Below, piece after piece: positions 9,225 to 17,290 of a DNA stretch of 23,388 nt; within the stretch, counting starts at the first letter, position 1; every line of letters starts with the position of its first letter. This stretch comes from a virus. The translations under genes and the position numbers were made by a program. Location of the stretch: positions 1 to 23,388 of the IMG/VR virus record IMGVR_UViG_3300042261_000312. One strand, written 5' to 3'. A model generated the notes under the pieces. It was not told where the DNA came from. It made no database searches and saw only the letters and a program-made list of their open reading frames with translations.

Positions 9225-9278
9225 ATGTCGCAGATAAATGTAGATACTATTAAAAGCAGAACAGGTGGAGCACGATAA
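9225..9278 (+). pseudogene. 17-codon remnant of a fibre gene cut off at the endonuclease cassette
   Basis: The reading frame MSQINVDTIKSRTGGAR has a full late promoter, the usual A-run and a normally spaced ATG. Its sequence resembles the first residues of T4-like cyanophage fibre proteins. It stops inside GATAAATA, which is the left edge of the endonuclease leader shared with 11461 and 16708. The likely reading is that arrival of the GIY-YIG cassette removed or displaced the rest of the gene. An alternative is a genuine short peptide gene, which seems less likely. Confidence 0.6.
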
Positions 9279-9281
9279 ATA
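9274..9281 (+). promoter_or_regulatory. Outer late promoter of endonuclease leader 1
   Basis: Octamer GATAAATA, overlapping the stop of the 17-codon remnant. Predicted +1 is the A at 9287, giving an RNA that starts ACCTGATTGGG. There is no A-run at the start site, unlike structural late promoters. Exactly seven bases separate it from the stem arm, as in leaders 2 and 3. Confidence 0.65.
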
Positions 9282-9311
9282 ATAATACCTGATTGGGTGG
9301 TACTTTTCAGG

Positions 9312-9336
9312 AGGAGGGTGAAAGTCCCTCCTTTTT
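9312..9336 (+). terminator. Terminator hairpin in endonuclease leader 1
   Basis: The stem AGGAGGG (9312-9318) pairs with CCCTCCT (9326-9332), with loop TGAAAGT and a T-run to 9336. A 37-base stretch around it is nearly identical to 11487-11523. It would end the RNA begun at 9287 after about 50 nt, as well as read-through from upstream. Confidence 0.75.
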
Positions 9337-9338
9337 AG

Positions 9339-9346
9339 TATAAATA
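9339..9346 (+). promoter_or_regulatory. Inner late promoter of the GIY-YIG endonuclease
   Basis: Perfect TATAAATA octamer just after the terminator. Predicted +1 near 9352 gives a 20-nt leader made mostly of the 3' stem arm. An endonuclease mRNA from here lacks the 5' arm. Confidence 0.8.
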
Positions 9347-9371
9347 GTATTACCACCCGATTAGAGTAGAA

Positions 9372-10052
9372 ATGTATTACGTTTATTCTTACTTAAGAGA
9401 GGATCATAGTCCTTATTATATTGGTAAAGGTTCTGGTAAAAGAGCATATACAAAAGGACCAAAAGAAGTTAAACCACCAAGAGATAAATCAAGAGTTAAG
9501 ATTATAAAAGCAGATTTAACAGAAGAAGAAGCATTCCTGTTAGAAAAACTTTATATCTTAATGTTTGGTAGAGTTGATTTAGGTACTGGTATTTTAAGAA
9601 ATAAGAGTGATGGTGGTGATGGTGCTTCTGGAGCAGTAAGAAGTGAAGAAACCAGAGAAAAACTTCGTCAAGCAAATCTTGGAAAGAAAAGACCGCAGTG
9701 GATTTATGATAAAATTGCTGCAAGTAATAGAGGTAAGAAAGCAAGTGCAGAAACTAGAGCAAAACAAAGTGCTGCTAGAAAAGGTAGAAAATGTACTGAA
9801 GAACATAAAAGAAAAGTAAGTGAAGCAAAGAAAGGATTTAAGCATACTGATGAAGCAAAAAGATTAATGGGAATTAATCAGCGTAAAAAAGCAAAACCAC
9901 ACAAACTTACTTTTGCTGATGGAAGAGAAATAATCGTTGATAATATTATGGAATGGTGTGAAAATAATCCATATTCTGCAAGTCCAGTATACAAAGTTAA
10001 AAACAAAGGTATTCCTCATAAAGACATCATAAAAGTAGAACTTATGGGATAG
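9372..10052 (+). CDS. GIY-YIG homing endonuclease with NUMOD3 DNA-binding motifs (226 aa)
   Basis: The N-terminal GIY-YIG nuclease domain shows YVYSYL (3-8) and YYIGKG (15-20), the family's two signature strands, then Arg24, the likely catalytic Glu58 and Asn77 in LRNKSDGG. NUMOD3-type basic repeats follow (SEETREKL near 91, ASAETRAK near 124, CTEEHKRK near 141, KHTDEAKR near 157). The C-terminal segment (IIVDNIMEWCENN) resembles the helical DNA-binding modules of such enzymes. It is a free-standing mobile endonuclease, expected to cut an allele lacking it. It is A-rich compared with its neighbours. Its expression is probably late and controlled by the leader at 9287-9364. The insertion site seems to be inside a former fibre gene. 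Confidence 0.92.
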   Translation: MYYVYSYLREDHSPYYIGKGSGKRAYTKGPKEVKPPRDKSRVKIIKADLTEEEAFLLEKLYILMFGRVDLGTGILRNKSDGGDGASGAVRSEETREKLRQANLGKKRPQWIYDKIAASNRGKKASAETRAKQSAARKGRKCTEEHKRKVSEAKKGFKHTDEAKRLMGINQRKKAKPHKLTFADGREIIVDNIMEWCENNPYSASPVYKVKNKGIPHKDIIKVELMG

Positions 10053-10078
10053 ACATTTCTAAAAAACTGATATATAAT
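10050..10078 (+). promoter_or_regulatory. Sigma-70-type (probable early) promoter
   Basis: TAGACA (10050-10055) and a perfect TATAAT (10073-10078) are separated by 17 bases, the ideal spacing. It begins at the end of the endonuclease gene and lies about 30 bases before the start of the first oxygenase. It differs from the late octamers around it and implies transcription by unmodified host polymerase. Confidence 0.7.
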
Positions 10079-10736: not shown

Positions 10737-11459
10737 ATGGCAGAACAAATGACAGAACTGCAACTGATGATGCAGGAAAGGATGAATACGGGAACTGCTT
10801 GGACTCGTAATGAATCCTTTGAGAAAAATGGATATTTGGTGATTAAAAATCTGTGGGACCCAGAAGAACTTTACCATCCTCTGCCACCAGAACGTGGACA
10901 GATGAACTGGTGGGGTAAAAAAATGGACCAGTTCACCCACAGTGAAGTAGAAATGCAGGTTGAAGGTTCACTTGCACGTTATTGGCACCCACAATATCGT
11001 CAGATTCATTGCGGTATTCGTATGAAACTGGAAGAAGCACTGGGACGGAAACTTTATAATACTTATTATTACGACAGATACTATTTTCCAGGGCAGGAAC
11101 TAACCCGTCACGCAGACCGTGATGCCTGTGAGATTTCTGTGACGGTTCATATTAGCACGAATCTAACTGGTGATGATGCTGATTGGCCCATCTGGATTAA
11201 AACTCCCGATACTTATGCAGATAAAAAGAAGACACAAGTATTAGTTCCTGGTGAGAATCGTTCTGTGATTCTGAAACCTGGTGATGGAATGGTTTATAAA
11301 GGAACGGAAAGGCCCCATTGGCGGGATCCAATGCCTGGTGCAAAGAAGAGTAAGAAACTGTTTGGTAAGACTGGTGAACTTTATTTTCATCAGATCTTTT
11401 TTCATTACGTGCTTCAAGATGGGCAGAGGGCACATTGCTATATGGATAGGTCCCGTTAG
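10737..11459 (+). CDS. 2OG-Fe(II) oxygenase family protein (240 aa)
   Basis: The iron-binding HxD is His125-Asp127 in ELTRHADRDACEISVTVHIS, a classic beta-strand context. The distal His is probably His194 in GTERPHWRDPMPG, preceded by LKPGDGMVYKG. The 2-oxoglutarate-binding basic residue is less clear, possibly Arg231. The N-terminal part (SFEKNGYLVIKNLWDPEEL) is the usual opening of phytanoyl-CoA/prolyl hydroxylase-like folds. It is co-transcribed with the preceding oxygenase, with a one-base gap and AGAGG upstream. No substrate can be deduced. It ends directly before the second endonuclease leader, so the cassette there follows an intact gene. Confidence 0.82.
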   Translation: MAEQMTELQLMMQERMNTGTAWTRNESFEKNGYLVIKNLWDPEELYHPLPPERGQMNWWGKKMDQFTHSEVEMQVEGSLARYWHPQYRQIHCGIRMKLEEALGRKLYNTYYYDRYYFPGQELTRHADRDACEISVTVHISTNLTGDDADWPIWIKTPDTYADKKKTQVLVPGENRSVILKPGDGMVYKGTERPHWRDPMPGAKKSKKLFGKTGELYFHQIFFHYVLQDGQRAHCYMDRSR

Positions 11460-11460
11460 A

Positions 11461-11468
11461 GATAAATA
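11461..11468 (+). promoter_or_regulatory. Outer late promoter of endonuclease leader 2
   Basis: Octamer GATAAATA two bases past the TAG stop of the oxygenase. Predicted +1 is the A at 11474, again starting ACCTGATTGGG. It lies exactly seven bases before the stem arm, and there is no A-run. Confidence 0.65.
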
Positions 11469-11498
11469 ACAATACCTGATTGGGTTGCACTTTTCAGG

Positions 11499-11523
11499 AG
11501 GAGGGTGGAAGTCCCTCCTTTTT
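11499..11523 (+). terminator. Terminator hairpin in endonuclease leader 2
   Basis: AGGAGGG (11499-11505) pairs with CCCTCCT (11513-11519), with loop TGGAAGT and T-run to 11523. From the 5' arm to the end of the T-run is 48 bases, identical in length to leader 1. Confidence 0.75.
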
Positions 11524-11537
11524 AATGCTATAATATG

Positions 11538-11545
11538 AATAAATA
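11538..11545 (+). promoter_or_regulatory. Inner late promoter of the second endonuclease
   Basis: Octamer AATAAATA. Predicted +1 near 11551 is the first base of the 3' arm, giving a 20-nt leader. A TATAAT at 11529-11534 lies just upstream but has no recognisable -35 at the right distance. Confidence 0.7.
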
Positions 11546-11570
11546 GTAACGCAACCCAAATCAGTAAAAA

Positions 11571-12476
11571 ATGTCTAGCAAGAAGTATCACTATACCTAC
11601 TATTCTTATGAAGAATGGGGTATGGGTTATTTTGGTAGCAGAAGCTGTGATTGCTTACCGGAAGAAGATGTAAATTATTTTGGAAGTTTTAGTAATAAAA
11701 ACTTTAATCCAACTCATAAGATTATTTTAAAAAGTGATTATGAAACTAGGGAAGAAGCGGTAGCAGATGAAATACTTCTTCACGAATTTTATGAAGTAGG
11801 AAAAAATCCTCACTTTGCAAATAAAGCAAAGCAAACTTCTAAAAAGTTTATCTTTTATGATATGGTTGGAGAAAAAAATCCATTTTATGGAAAAGAACAT
11901 TCGCCAGAAACAAAAGAACTTTTAAAACAAAGAACAACAGAAACTTGGAAAAATAAACCACATCCTTGGATTGGAAAATCTCACAGTGAAGAAACAAAAA
12001 ATAAATTAAGAGAAAAGAATGCAGGTCAAGTTCCTTGGAATAAAGGTATTCCTAGGACAGAAGAAGAAAAGATAAAAATGCGTCTGGGTCACAAAGAATG
12101 GCATAAAAACAATGTTGTTTGGAATAAAGGAAAAACTGGAATATTTTCCCAAGAAGCCTTACAATCTATGAGTGAAAAAAGAAAAGGCGTTGTTCCTTGG
12201 AATAAAGGAATTGCCAGAACCCCAGAAGAAAAGAAAAAAATAAGTGAAAATAATCCTATGAAAAGGGACGAAGTTAAACAAAAAATGATAGACAGTTTAT
12301 GTAAAACCACATATGAGTTTACTGACCCAGAAGGAAATATTCATATCACTAAAAATATGACACAGTTTTGTTTGGATAAAAAATTAAATAGGAATTGTAT
12401 CGCTCTTGTTATAAAAGGAAAACAAAAGCATCATAAGAGCTGGACTTGCAAAATTCTTGGGAGGATTGAAAAATGA
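11571..12476 (+). CDS. GIY-YIG-like homing endonuclease with multiple NUMOD3 motifs (301 aa)
   Basis: The N-terminal domain is a divergent GIY-YIG fold: YHYTYYSYEEW and GYFGSRS (about 6-25) stand for the two signature strands, with acidic residues in ETREEAVADEILL and Asn84 in HFANKAKQTS. At least five NUMOD3-like repeats follow, for example NPFYGKEHSPETKELL (103-118), HPWIGKSHSEETKNKL, and three PWNKG or VWNKG units. The C-terminus (ITKNMTQFCLDKKLNRNCIA then HHKSWTC) is a helix-turn-helix-like module often ending such enzymes. It overlaps the next gene by four bases (ATGA), so the third oxygenase may be translated from the same mRNA. The gene is A-rich and bears its own gated leader, both signs of mobility. 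Confidence 0.88.
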   Translation: MSSKKYHYTYYSYEEWGMGYFGSRSCDCLPEEDVNYFGSFSNKNFNPTHKIILKSDYETREEAVADEILLHEFYEVGKNPHFANKAKQTSKKFIFYDMVGEKNPFYGKEHSPETKELLKQRTTETWKNKPHPWIGKSHSEETKNKLREKNAGQVPWNKGIPRTEEEKIKMRLGHKEWHKNNVVWNKGKTGIFSQEALQSMSEKRKGVVPWNKGIARTPEEKKKISENNPMKRDEVKQKMIDSLCKTTYEFTDPEGNIHITKNMTQFCLDKKLNRNCIALVIKGKQKHHKSWTCKILGRIEK

Positions 12477-16707: not shown

Positions 16708-16715
16708 CATAAATA
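16708..16715 (+). promoter_or_regulatory. Outer late promoter of endonuclease leader 3
   Basis: Octamer CATAAATA ten bases after the adhesin stop. Predicted +1 is the A at 16721, the start of ACCTAAACATT. It lies seven bases from the stem arm, as in leaders 1 and 2, and lacks the A-run. Confidence 0.65.
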
Positions 16716-16746
16716 ACATTACCTAAACATTCGCAACTTTAGGTGG

Positions 16747-16772
16747 GGAGAGTAGAAATACTCTCCTTTGTT
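16747..16772 (+). terminator. Terminator-like hairpin in endonuclease leader 3
   Basis: GGAGAGTA (16747-16754) pairs perfectly with TACTCTCC (16759-16766) around a stable GAAA tetraloop, followed by TTTGTT. The T-run is interrupted by one G, so termination may be less complete than in leaders 1 and 2. Confidence 0.68.
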
Positions 16773-16773
16773 A

Positions 16774-16781
16774 TATAAATA
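16774..16781 (+). promoter_or_regulatory. Inner late promoter of the HNH endonuclease
   Basis: Perfect TATAAATA octamer in the loop between the stem arms. Predicted +1 near 16787 leaves an 18-nt leader consisting mostly of the 3' arm. Confidence 0.8.
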
Positions 16782-16804
16782 CATATGCGAATGTTTAGAG
16801 TAGT

Positions 16805-17290
16805 ATGAAACGATTAGAGGTCTCTCAAGAGAGAGTACTGGAACTTTTTAAGTATGAAGATGGAAAGTTATTCCGTAGAAGTGATAATAAAGAAATGGGT
16901 ATCTATTCCACAAAACATCATAGATATGCTAGAATAGTGATTGATGGAAAAGATCATAAACTCCATCGTATTATCTTCTTATATCATCACGGGTATCTTC
17001 CAGATATCATAGATCACATTAATGGTGATTGTTATGATAACCGAATAGAAAACTTAAGAGAAGCAAACACACACCAAAACCGACAAAATAGTAGAATATA
17101 CTCTACAAGTAAGTCCGGTGTAAAGAATGTTTATTGGGAACAAGGGTGTAAAAAATGGAGAGTTACTTTTACTATTAATTACAAAAGAAAAACATTTGGT
17201 TATTACACGGATTTAGAAGAAGCAAAACAAGTTGCAACTTCTATGCGTGATAAATATTTCAAAGAATTTGCAAATCACGGTTCTTATTAA
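16805..17290 (+). CDS. HNH homing endonuclease with AP2 DNA-binding domain (161 aa)
   Basis: The HNH core is clear: KLHRIIFLYHHGYLP (52-66), then IDHINGDCYDNRIENLR (69-85) with catalytic-type His71 and Asn/Asp residues, the HNH_3 pattern of phage free-standing endonucleases. Residues 104-157 (SGVKNVYWEQGCKKWRVTF, then FGYYTDLEEA) form an AP2-like domain that binds DNA. It stands between the 655-aa adhesin and the conserved 137-aa gene, with a gated leader upstream. The stop lies just before the ribosome binding site of the next gene. It belongs to a different nuclease family from the two GIY-YIG enzymes but is regulated in the same apparent way. Confidence 0.92.
   Translation: MKRLEVSQERVLELFKYEDGKLFRRSDNKEMGIYSTKHHRYARIVIDGKDHKLHRIIFLYHHGYLPDIIDHINGDCYDNRIENLREANTHQNRQNSRIYSTSKSGVKNVYWEQGCKKWRVTFTINYKRKTFGYYTDLEEAKQVATSMRDKYFKEFANHGSY
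17249..17256 (+). promoter_or_regulatory. Possible late promoter (GATAAATA) inside the HNH gene
   Basis: This octamer occurs in the coding sequence about 50 bases before the 137-aa gene, which otherwise has no late promoter of its own. It has no A-run at the predicted start, so it may be chance. Confidence 0.3.

Follow-up and report, generated by a model that had tools for sequence, protein, structure and literature searches.

The stretch of DNA analysed here (the window; 23,388 nt, positions 1 to 23,388 of the IMG/VR virus record IMGVR_UViG_3300042261_000312) carries three endonuclease genes, each preceded by a leader in which the same parts follow one another: a late octamer, a 5′ arm, a terminator, a second late octamer, a complementary arm and the ATG. 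A sequence-only reading had described this arrangement in front of the first gene and claimed the same plan for all three. Every element it named in leader 1 is present at the position it gave, and the plan recurs before the 226-aa, 301-aa and 161-aa genes alike. A feature absent from that reading is a second hairpin (CCTGA/TCAGG; ACCTAAA/TTTAGGT in leader 3), which holds the 5′ arm in its loop. The arms of the three leaders are unlike in sequence (TTGGGTGGTA, TTGGGTTGC and AAACATTCGCA), with complementarity kept in each. The features are listed below, with the evidence for each in brackets.

9274-9281, + strand: leader 1 outer late octamer GATAAATA, predicted sRNA promoter (sequence)
9287-9336, + strand: leader 1 predicted antisense sRNA of ~50 nt, made up of the 5′ hairpin and the terminator (folding, family folds)
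9288-9311, + strand: leader 1 hairpin CCTGA/TCAGG, stem 9288-9292/9307-9311, antisense arm in the loop (compensatory stems in relatives)
9289-9302, + strand: leader 1 5′ (antisense) arm CTGATTGGGTGGTA (complementarity, covariation)
9312-9336, + strand: leader 1 intrinsic terminator, AGGAGGG-loop-CCCTCCT and T-run, stem ~9312-9318/9326-9332 (sequence, folding)
9339-9346, + strand: leader 1 inner late octamer TATAAATA, putative endonuclease mRNA promoter (sequence; common in the family)
9351-9364, + strand: leader 1 3′ (target) arm TACCACCCGATTAG, predicted mRNA +1 at ~9352 (complementarity, pairing profile)
9372-10052, + strand: GIY-YIG-like/NUMOD3 homing endonuclease, 226 aa, ATG at 9372 (ORF, Pfam, relatives)
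11461-11468, + strand: leader 2 outer late octamer GATAAATA (sequence; missing from the empty sites of relatives)
11474-11523, + strand: leader 2 predicted sRNA, CCTGA/TCAGG hairpin 11475-11498 and terminator 11499-11523 (sequence, folding)
11480-11488, + strand: leader 2 5′ arm TTGGGTTGC (complementarity)
11538-11545, + strand: leader 2 inner octamer AATAAATA (sequence)
11551-11559, + strand: leader 2 3′ arm GCAACCCAA, predicted mRNA +1 at ~11551 (complementarity, pairing profile)
11571-12476, + strand: NUMOD3 (GIY-YIG-like) endonuclease, 301 aa, ATG at 11571 (ORF, Pfam)
16708-16715, + strand: leader 3 outer octamer CATAAATA (sequence)
16721-16769, + strand: leader 3 predicted sRNA, ACCTAAA/TTTAGGT hairpin and terminator (sequence, folding)
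16723-16735, + strand: leader 3 5′ arm CTAAACATTCGCA (complementarity)
16774-16781, + strand: leader 3 inner octamer TATAAATA (sequence)
16786-16798, + strand: leader 3 3′ arm TGCGAATGTTTAG, predicted mRNA +1 at ~16787 (complementarity, pairing profile)
16805-17290, + strand: HNH_3 endonuclease, 161 aa, ATG at 16805 (ORF, Pfam)

Pfam searches identified NUMOD3 in endonucleases 1 and 2 and HNH_3 in endonuclease 3; the first two are probably GIY-YIG-like, judging from their YxxY...YYIGKG-like starts and their relatives and without a Pfam GIY-YIG match. Within the window the outer motif ATAAATANNNNTACCT has three occurrences, all of them in the leaders, and none in the reversed reading. No clear Shine-Dalgarno sequence was found in leader 2. 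Two neighbouring features were also noted. A short ORF, MSQINVDTIKSRTGGAR (9225-9278), has its TAA stop within the outer octamer of leader 1 and presumably resembles the start of a tail-fibre-like gene truncated by the insert. A sigma-70-like promoter match (TAGACA-17-TATAAT, 11/12; 10050-10078) starts at the endonuclease 1 stop codon and precedes a 2OG-Fe(II) oxygenase gene.

The octamers belong to the T4-type late promoter motif NATAAATA known from cyanophages (PMC2984593), which was found upstream of genes here. Both are followed by NNNN-T-purine, a spacing consistent with T4-type late starts. A purine stands 6 nt downstream of the outer octamer; the first base of the 5′ hairpin is either this purine or its neighbour on the 3′ side, and the hairpin is followed by the terminator. 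The inner octamer is TATAAATA in 107 of the 112 leaders with arms described below, and in these as in the three window leaders it is placed such that a self-started mRNA would lack the 5′ arm, as had been proposed.

A protein search with endonuclease 1 returned 20 IMG/VR loci, with the leader present at L001-L010 and L019. IMG/VR was also searched with a pattern built solely from a CCTR...YAGG stem and the outer and inner octamers, with arms, terminator and gene left unspecified. This pattern was found in at least 120 stretches, nearly all of them before selfish nucleases, which bears out the earlier suggestion of a general device of cyanophage homing genes. Arms of at least 9 contiguous pairs were present in 112 of the 130 pattern matches in the collected loci, forming helices of 9-17 bp from 67 different arm sequences, and shuffled partners, same-family partners included, reached 9 pairs in ~7%; the claim that the arms are complementary thus stands, with strong covariation. 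With 49 whole records the pattern matched 45, against 0 in the reversed control. In bacterial genomes, which served as a control, it gave 114 scattered stretches, and arms of at least 9 pairs in only 4 of 108 distinct matches; these were rejected as chance occurrences.

Several sequenced isolates carry the leader: S-SRM01 (NC_070963) has six full copies and one compact variant, B23 has three, and S-B68 and S-CREM2 have leaders with other stem sequences. The S-B68 leader escaped the whole-genome arm scan because its helix is bulged, and is recognizable by eye. The same scan found no leader in Syn9 or S-PM2, so work on these two phages cannot settle the question of its function. A BLASTN search of the leader against named phages gave only one convincing match, S-SRM01, the short matches in Klebsiella, Staphylococcus and similar phages being terminator-like fragments. 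A near-exact 22-mer of leaders 1 and 2 had no match in IMG/VR because the arms vary. Rfam 15 gave no match at the gathering threshold in the window and none at E ≤ 1 over 9260-9400, and no description of the leader was found in the open-access literature searched; the family seems to be undescribed.

Because the outer octamer and some of the stem are built into the search pattern, both were tested where they were not required. The regions upstream of protein-selected homologues comprised 43 distinct sequences, 36 of them with arms, and the outer octamer stood at its standard place in 35 of these 36, L284 being the sole exception. A scan that required only the inner octamer and arms of at least 10 pairs, run over 2 Mb of sequence from complete phage genomes and from loci selected by protein, found arms at 61 of 1760 octamers (4 of 2283 in the reversed control). 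The outer octamer lay 5-12 nt before the arm in 55 of these 61 leaders, and a stem enclosed the 5′ arm in 53 of 55, compared with 39% in shuffled sequence. The terminator that had been placed between the arms was likewise recovered, as a terminator-like hairpin in 56 of the 61 (19% in shuffles). The stem itself shows compensation at the fourth pair (94/95, 82.6 expected) and the fifth (70, 54.9 expected), and its compensating classes are CCTG/CAGG, CCTA/TAGG, TCTG/CAGA, CTTAA/TTAAG (B23), GTCT/AGAC (S-B68) and GCTT/AAGC (S-SRM01). The seven members of the TCTG/CAGA class came from a separate scan and have 12-15-bp arms and the full architecture. An extension of the stem to the +1 base was rejected for want of covariation (60/95, null 60.7).

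The genes downstream of the leader are nearly all selfish nucleases. PHROG homing-endonuclease families account for 78 of 104 downstream proteins, and NUMOD3 is present in 56; the others include GIY-YIG, I-HmuI-type and HNH proteins, one endonuclease VII-like protein (L035) and two TnpB/OrfB proteins (L110, L123), and a few had no informative Pfam match in single tests. The TnpB/OrfB_IS605 genes (L110 245-1438 and L123 3958-5151) are those of a 243-kb phage contig and bear a leader of the homing-endonuclease type. A compact second class was seen at L568 ~18229 (S-SRM01 ~77630), L152 (Sf-CH5 ~156270) and L278 960. It has a single GGG...CCC hairpin with an internal GCAACTT/AAGTTGC-like stem and the arm in the loop; this hairpin precedes a T-rich stretch and may act as the terminator itself, and further downstream come the inner octamer, the arm's complement and the gene. 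In the S-SRM01 compact variant a degenerate outer octamer, TGTAAATA, lies upstream.

The borders of the cassette can be read from empty sites. The gene preceding leader 2 has close relatives whose stop codon overlaps the next start (GCACGATGAAGG) and which lack the octamer, while the window, L323, L325, L306 and L309 have endonucleases with differing arms at this junction, each with its own outer octamer. The outer promoter is therefore part of the insert. The junction, which follows homologues of window gene 10737-11459, is an insertion hot spot (L306, L309, L323, L325 and window 11461-12476) and is empty in many relatives.

Measured against the predicted inner +1, arm complementarity is 99-100% from +1 to +9 and above background to +12, and falls to or below background at -2 and from ~+13, with the ATG at ~+20; because the longest helix was used to fix the register, the boundary is sharp partly by construction, its position with respect to the octamer alone being unconstrained. 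On this profile, the helix matches the start of the self-started mRNA and ends before the start codon. The Shine-Dalgarno and start region are not sequestered: in leader 1, the arm ends at 9364 and the ATG is at 9372. Predicted folds of the sRNA have energies of -20.8 kcal/mol (z -2.4) in leader 1 and -18.6 kcal/mol (z -3.9) in leader 3, and two hairpins are predicted in 100 of 109 leaders (stem probability >0.5). The predicted pairing between the sRNA and the mRNA start has a median net energy of -15.2 kcal/mol for cognate and -2.8 kcal/mol for non-cognate pairs.

We propose, with a probability of roughly 0.6, that the leader equips the endonuclease cassette with an antisense brake built from two promoters, in which an sRNA pairs with the 5′ end of the endonuclease mRNA and represses it. 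The outer promoter, the loop-displayed arm and the terminator have the makings of a complete transcription unit of ~50 nt. Transcription from the outer late promoter would start at the purine directly before CCTG and end at the terminator, giving an RNA in which the ~16-nt loop of the 5′ hairpin exposes the antisense arm. From the near-perfect inner late promoter, the endonuclease mRNA would begin at the complementary arm; the sRNA could then pair with the first ~9-14 nt of this mRNA, just upstream of the start region, and lower its translation or stability. A strong late promoter would in this way yield little nuclease while downstream late genes were still transcribed. In upstream RNA that reads through the terminator, the same arms may pair in cis and silence the read-through as well, as a second lock. 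What the sequences themselves show is the anatomy of the leader, its covariation and spacing, the borders of the cassette and its distribution; the start and end sites, the sRNA itself, its pairing in trans and the repression are predictions.

The earlier reading had drawn its logic from the td intron and I-TevI, with arms that silence read-through RNA only, an inner promoter whose RNA is translated and a terminator that merely reduces read-through. Part of this stands. Hairpins combined with late promoters precede I-TevI, I-TevII, I-TevIII, T4 segB and Aeh1 mobE (PMC2988022), the inner promoter lies between the arms, most of the 112 leaders follow a co-directional gene, and a td-like effect in cis is possible, since folding predictions for the whole leader RNA pair the two arms in 109 of 109 cases. 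As the whole story, however, it is doubtful, though by no means far-fetched: the helix misses the ribosome binding and start region, and such a gate leaves unexplained why the cassette contains a spaced outer promoter, why a covarying hairpin encloses the 5′ arm and why the pairing has its boundary at the inner +1. Nor does it account for three intact leaders (L043, L059 and L094) after a divergently oriented structural gene, where no read-through from upstream would need silencing. Action in cis and action in trans cannot be told apart by covariation alone, because the same arms would pair in cis; an antisense RNA acting in trans is favoured because a purely cis-acting gate has no use for the outer promoter, the 5′-arm hairpin and the +1 boundary. 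An insulator for the insertion, whose terminator would block upstream structural transcription and whose inner promoter would restore that of the next late gene, with the arms secondary, fits the near universal terminator and TATAAATA and the empty site, where the overlap of stop and start means that an insert would otherwise disturb the downstream gene. It is improbable nonetheless, as it leaves the covarying 9-17-bp arms, the outer promoter and the 5′ hairpin unexplained. Very improbable, in our view, is a role at the DNA level, with the inverted repeat as a recombination end or as an operator or recognition site of the endonuclease, even though the arms overlap the inner start site and I-TevI binds an operator and represses its own late promoter (PMC2988022). 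Even closely related endonucleases have different arm sequences in front of them, with pairing preserved, the same arm families precede different nuclease families, and the order of promoter, hairpin and terminator is RNA-like.

Other observations count against the proposed antisense RNA. Arms within a genome are no more orthogonal than arms between genomes, with no sign of cross-talk avoidance (mean best cross-helix 6.38 within and 6.39 between genomes), and YUNR, a loop motif shared by many antisense RNAs, shows no enrichment in the leaders (77/95, shuffle mean 75.2). Moreover, L284 (1468) and L285 lack an outer octamer at the standard spacing and yet have the hairpin, terminator, inner octamer and arms intact. 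Their leader is a naturally occurring variant with which action in cis could be distinguished from action in trans.

Same-strand antisense RNAs encoded upstream of their target include the c4 RNA of phages P1 and P7 and the CI RNA of P4. They resemble the predicted leader sRNA in strand and position and in their short, loop-like complementary segments; they differ in being processed from a common transcript and in controlling immunity or antirepressor genes, whereas the predicted leader sRNA is bounded by a dedicated promoter and terminator and its target is a selfish nuclease. The c4 antisense RNA is cited in PMC12197685. RNA-OUT of IS10 is a hairpin-loop antisense RNA that acts on the 5′ end of the mRNA (RNA-IN) of a mobile-element nuclease or transposase (PMC5006887). 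By sequence, the predicted leader sRNA shares with it a promoter and a terminator of its own and a hairpin loop able to base-pair with the 5′ end of the mRNA that it would target. RNA-OUT, however, is encoded on the opposite strand and pairs more extensively, whereas the predicted leader sRNA lies on the same strand as its target, in tandem and under a separate late promoter, so that complementarity has to be maintained as an inverted repeat. Like the leaders of I-TevI, segB and mobE, those described here combine a homing endonuclease, complementary arms, a T4-type late motif and a self-started RNA without one arm. The hairpins of that group hide the ribosome binding site, which is their defining feature and is unlike the cyanophage leaders, and PMC2988022 describes no outer late promoter, inter-arm terminator or separate 5′-arm hairpin for them; seg43 of Aeromonas phage 25, with a hairpin just upstream of the ribosome binding site, is nearer in placement (PMC2988022). 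CfrI of cyanophage S-PM2 is likewise a cyanophage RNA tied to a homing endonuclease gene, but is described as a ~225-nt antisense transcript of the opposite strand across psbA and the endonuclease gene, with an unrelated architecture (Millard 2010, via PMC2984593 and PMC12197685). The leader may thus be seen as a td/I-TevI-type order of parts with additions and an IS10 RNA-OUT-like logic.

At a few loci, the endonuclease or its start has been lost (L085 7542, L088 14206, L140 4074 and, on the reverse strand, L116 1931), and the outer octamer, the arm hairpin and mostly the terminator are retained. In L085, the retained arm is a perfect antisense match to the start of the endonuclease mRNA in L284/L285; the HNH protein of L284/L285 shares 81% identity with window endonuclease 3.

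How free-standing endonucleases, numerous as they are, are controlled and tolerated by their phages, and how they restrain themselves, is known for a few T4-type genes. We give about even odds to the wider reading that the leaders constitute a widespread family of antisense sRNAs, in tandem on the strand of their target, that sets nuclease dose in trans in cyanophage GIY-YIG, HNH, endonuclease VII-like and TnpB cassettes. The question of cis or trans action is testable in the sequenced isolates S-SRM01, B23, S-B68 and S-CREM2, and the leader can be used as a sequence signature for finding mobile nucleases. If the antisense reading is true, a portable promoter-antisense-terminator-promoter module occurs in unrelated nuclease families, TnpB included, which would point to convergence on, or exchange of, one cassette, and abundant environmental viruses would hold a new class of antisense RNA. 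Phages that have lost the nuclease and kept the RNA gene (L085, L116, L140 and partly L088) could then silence an incoming nuclease copy.
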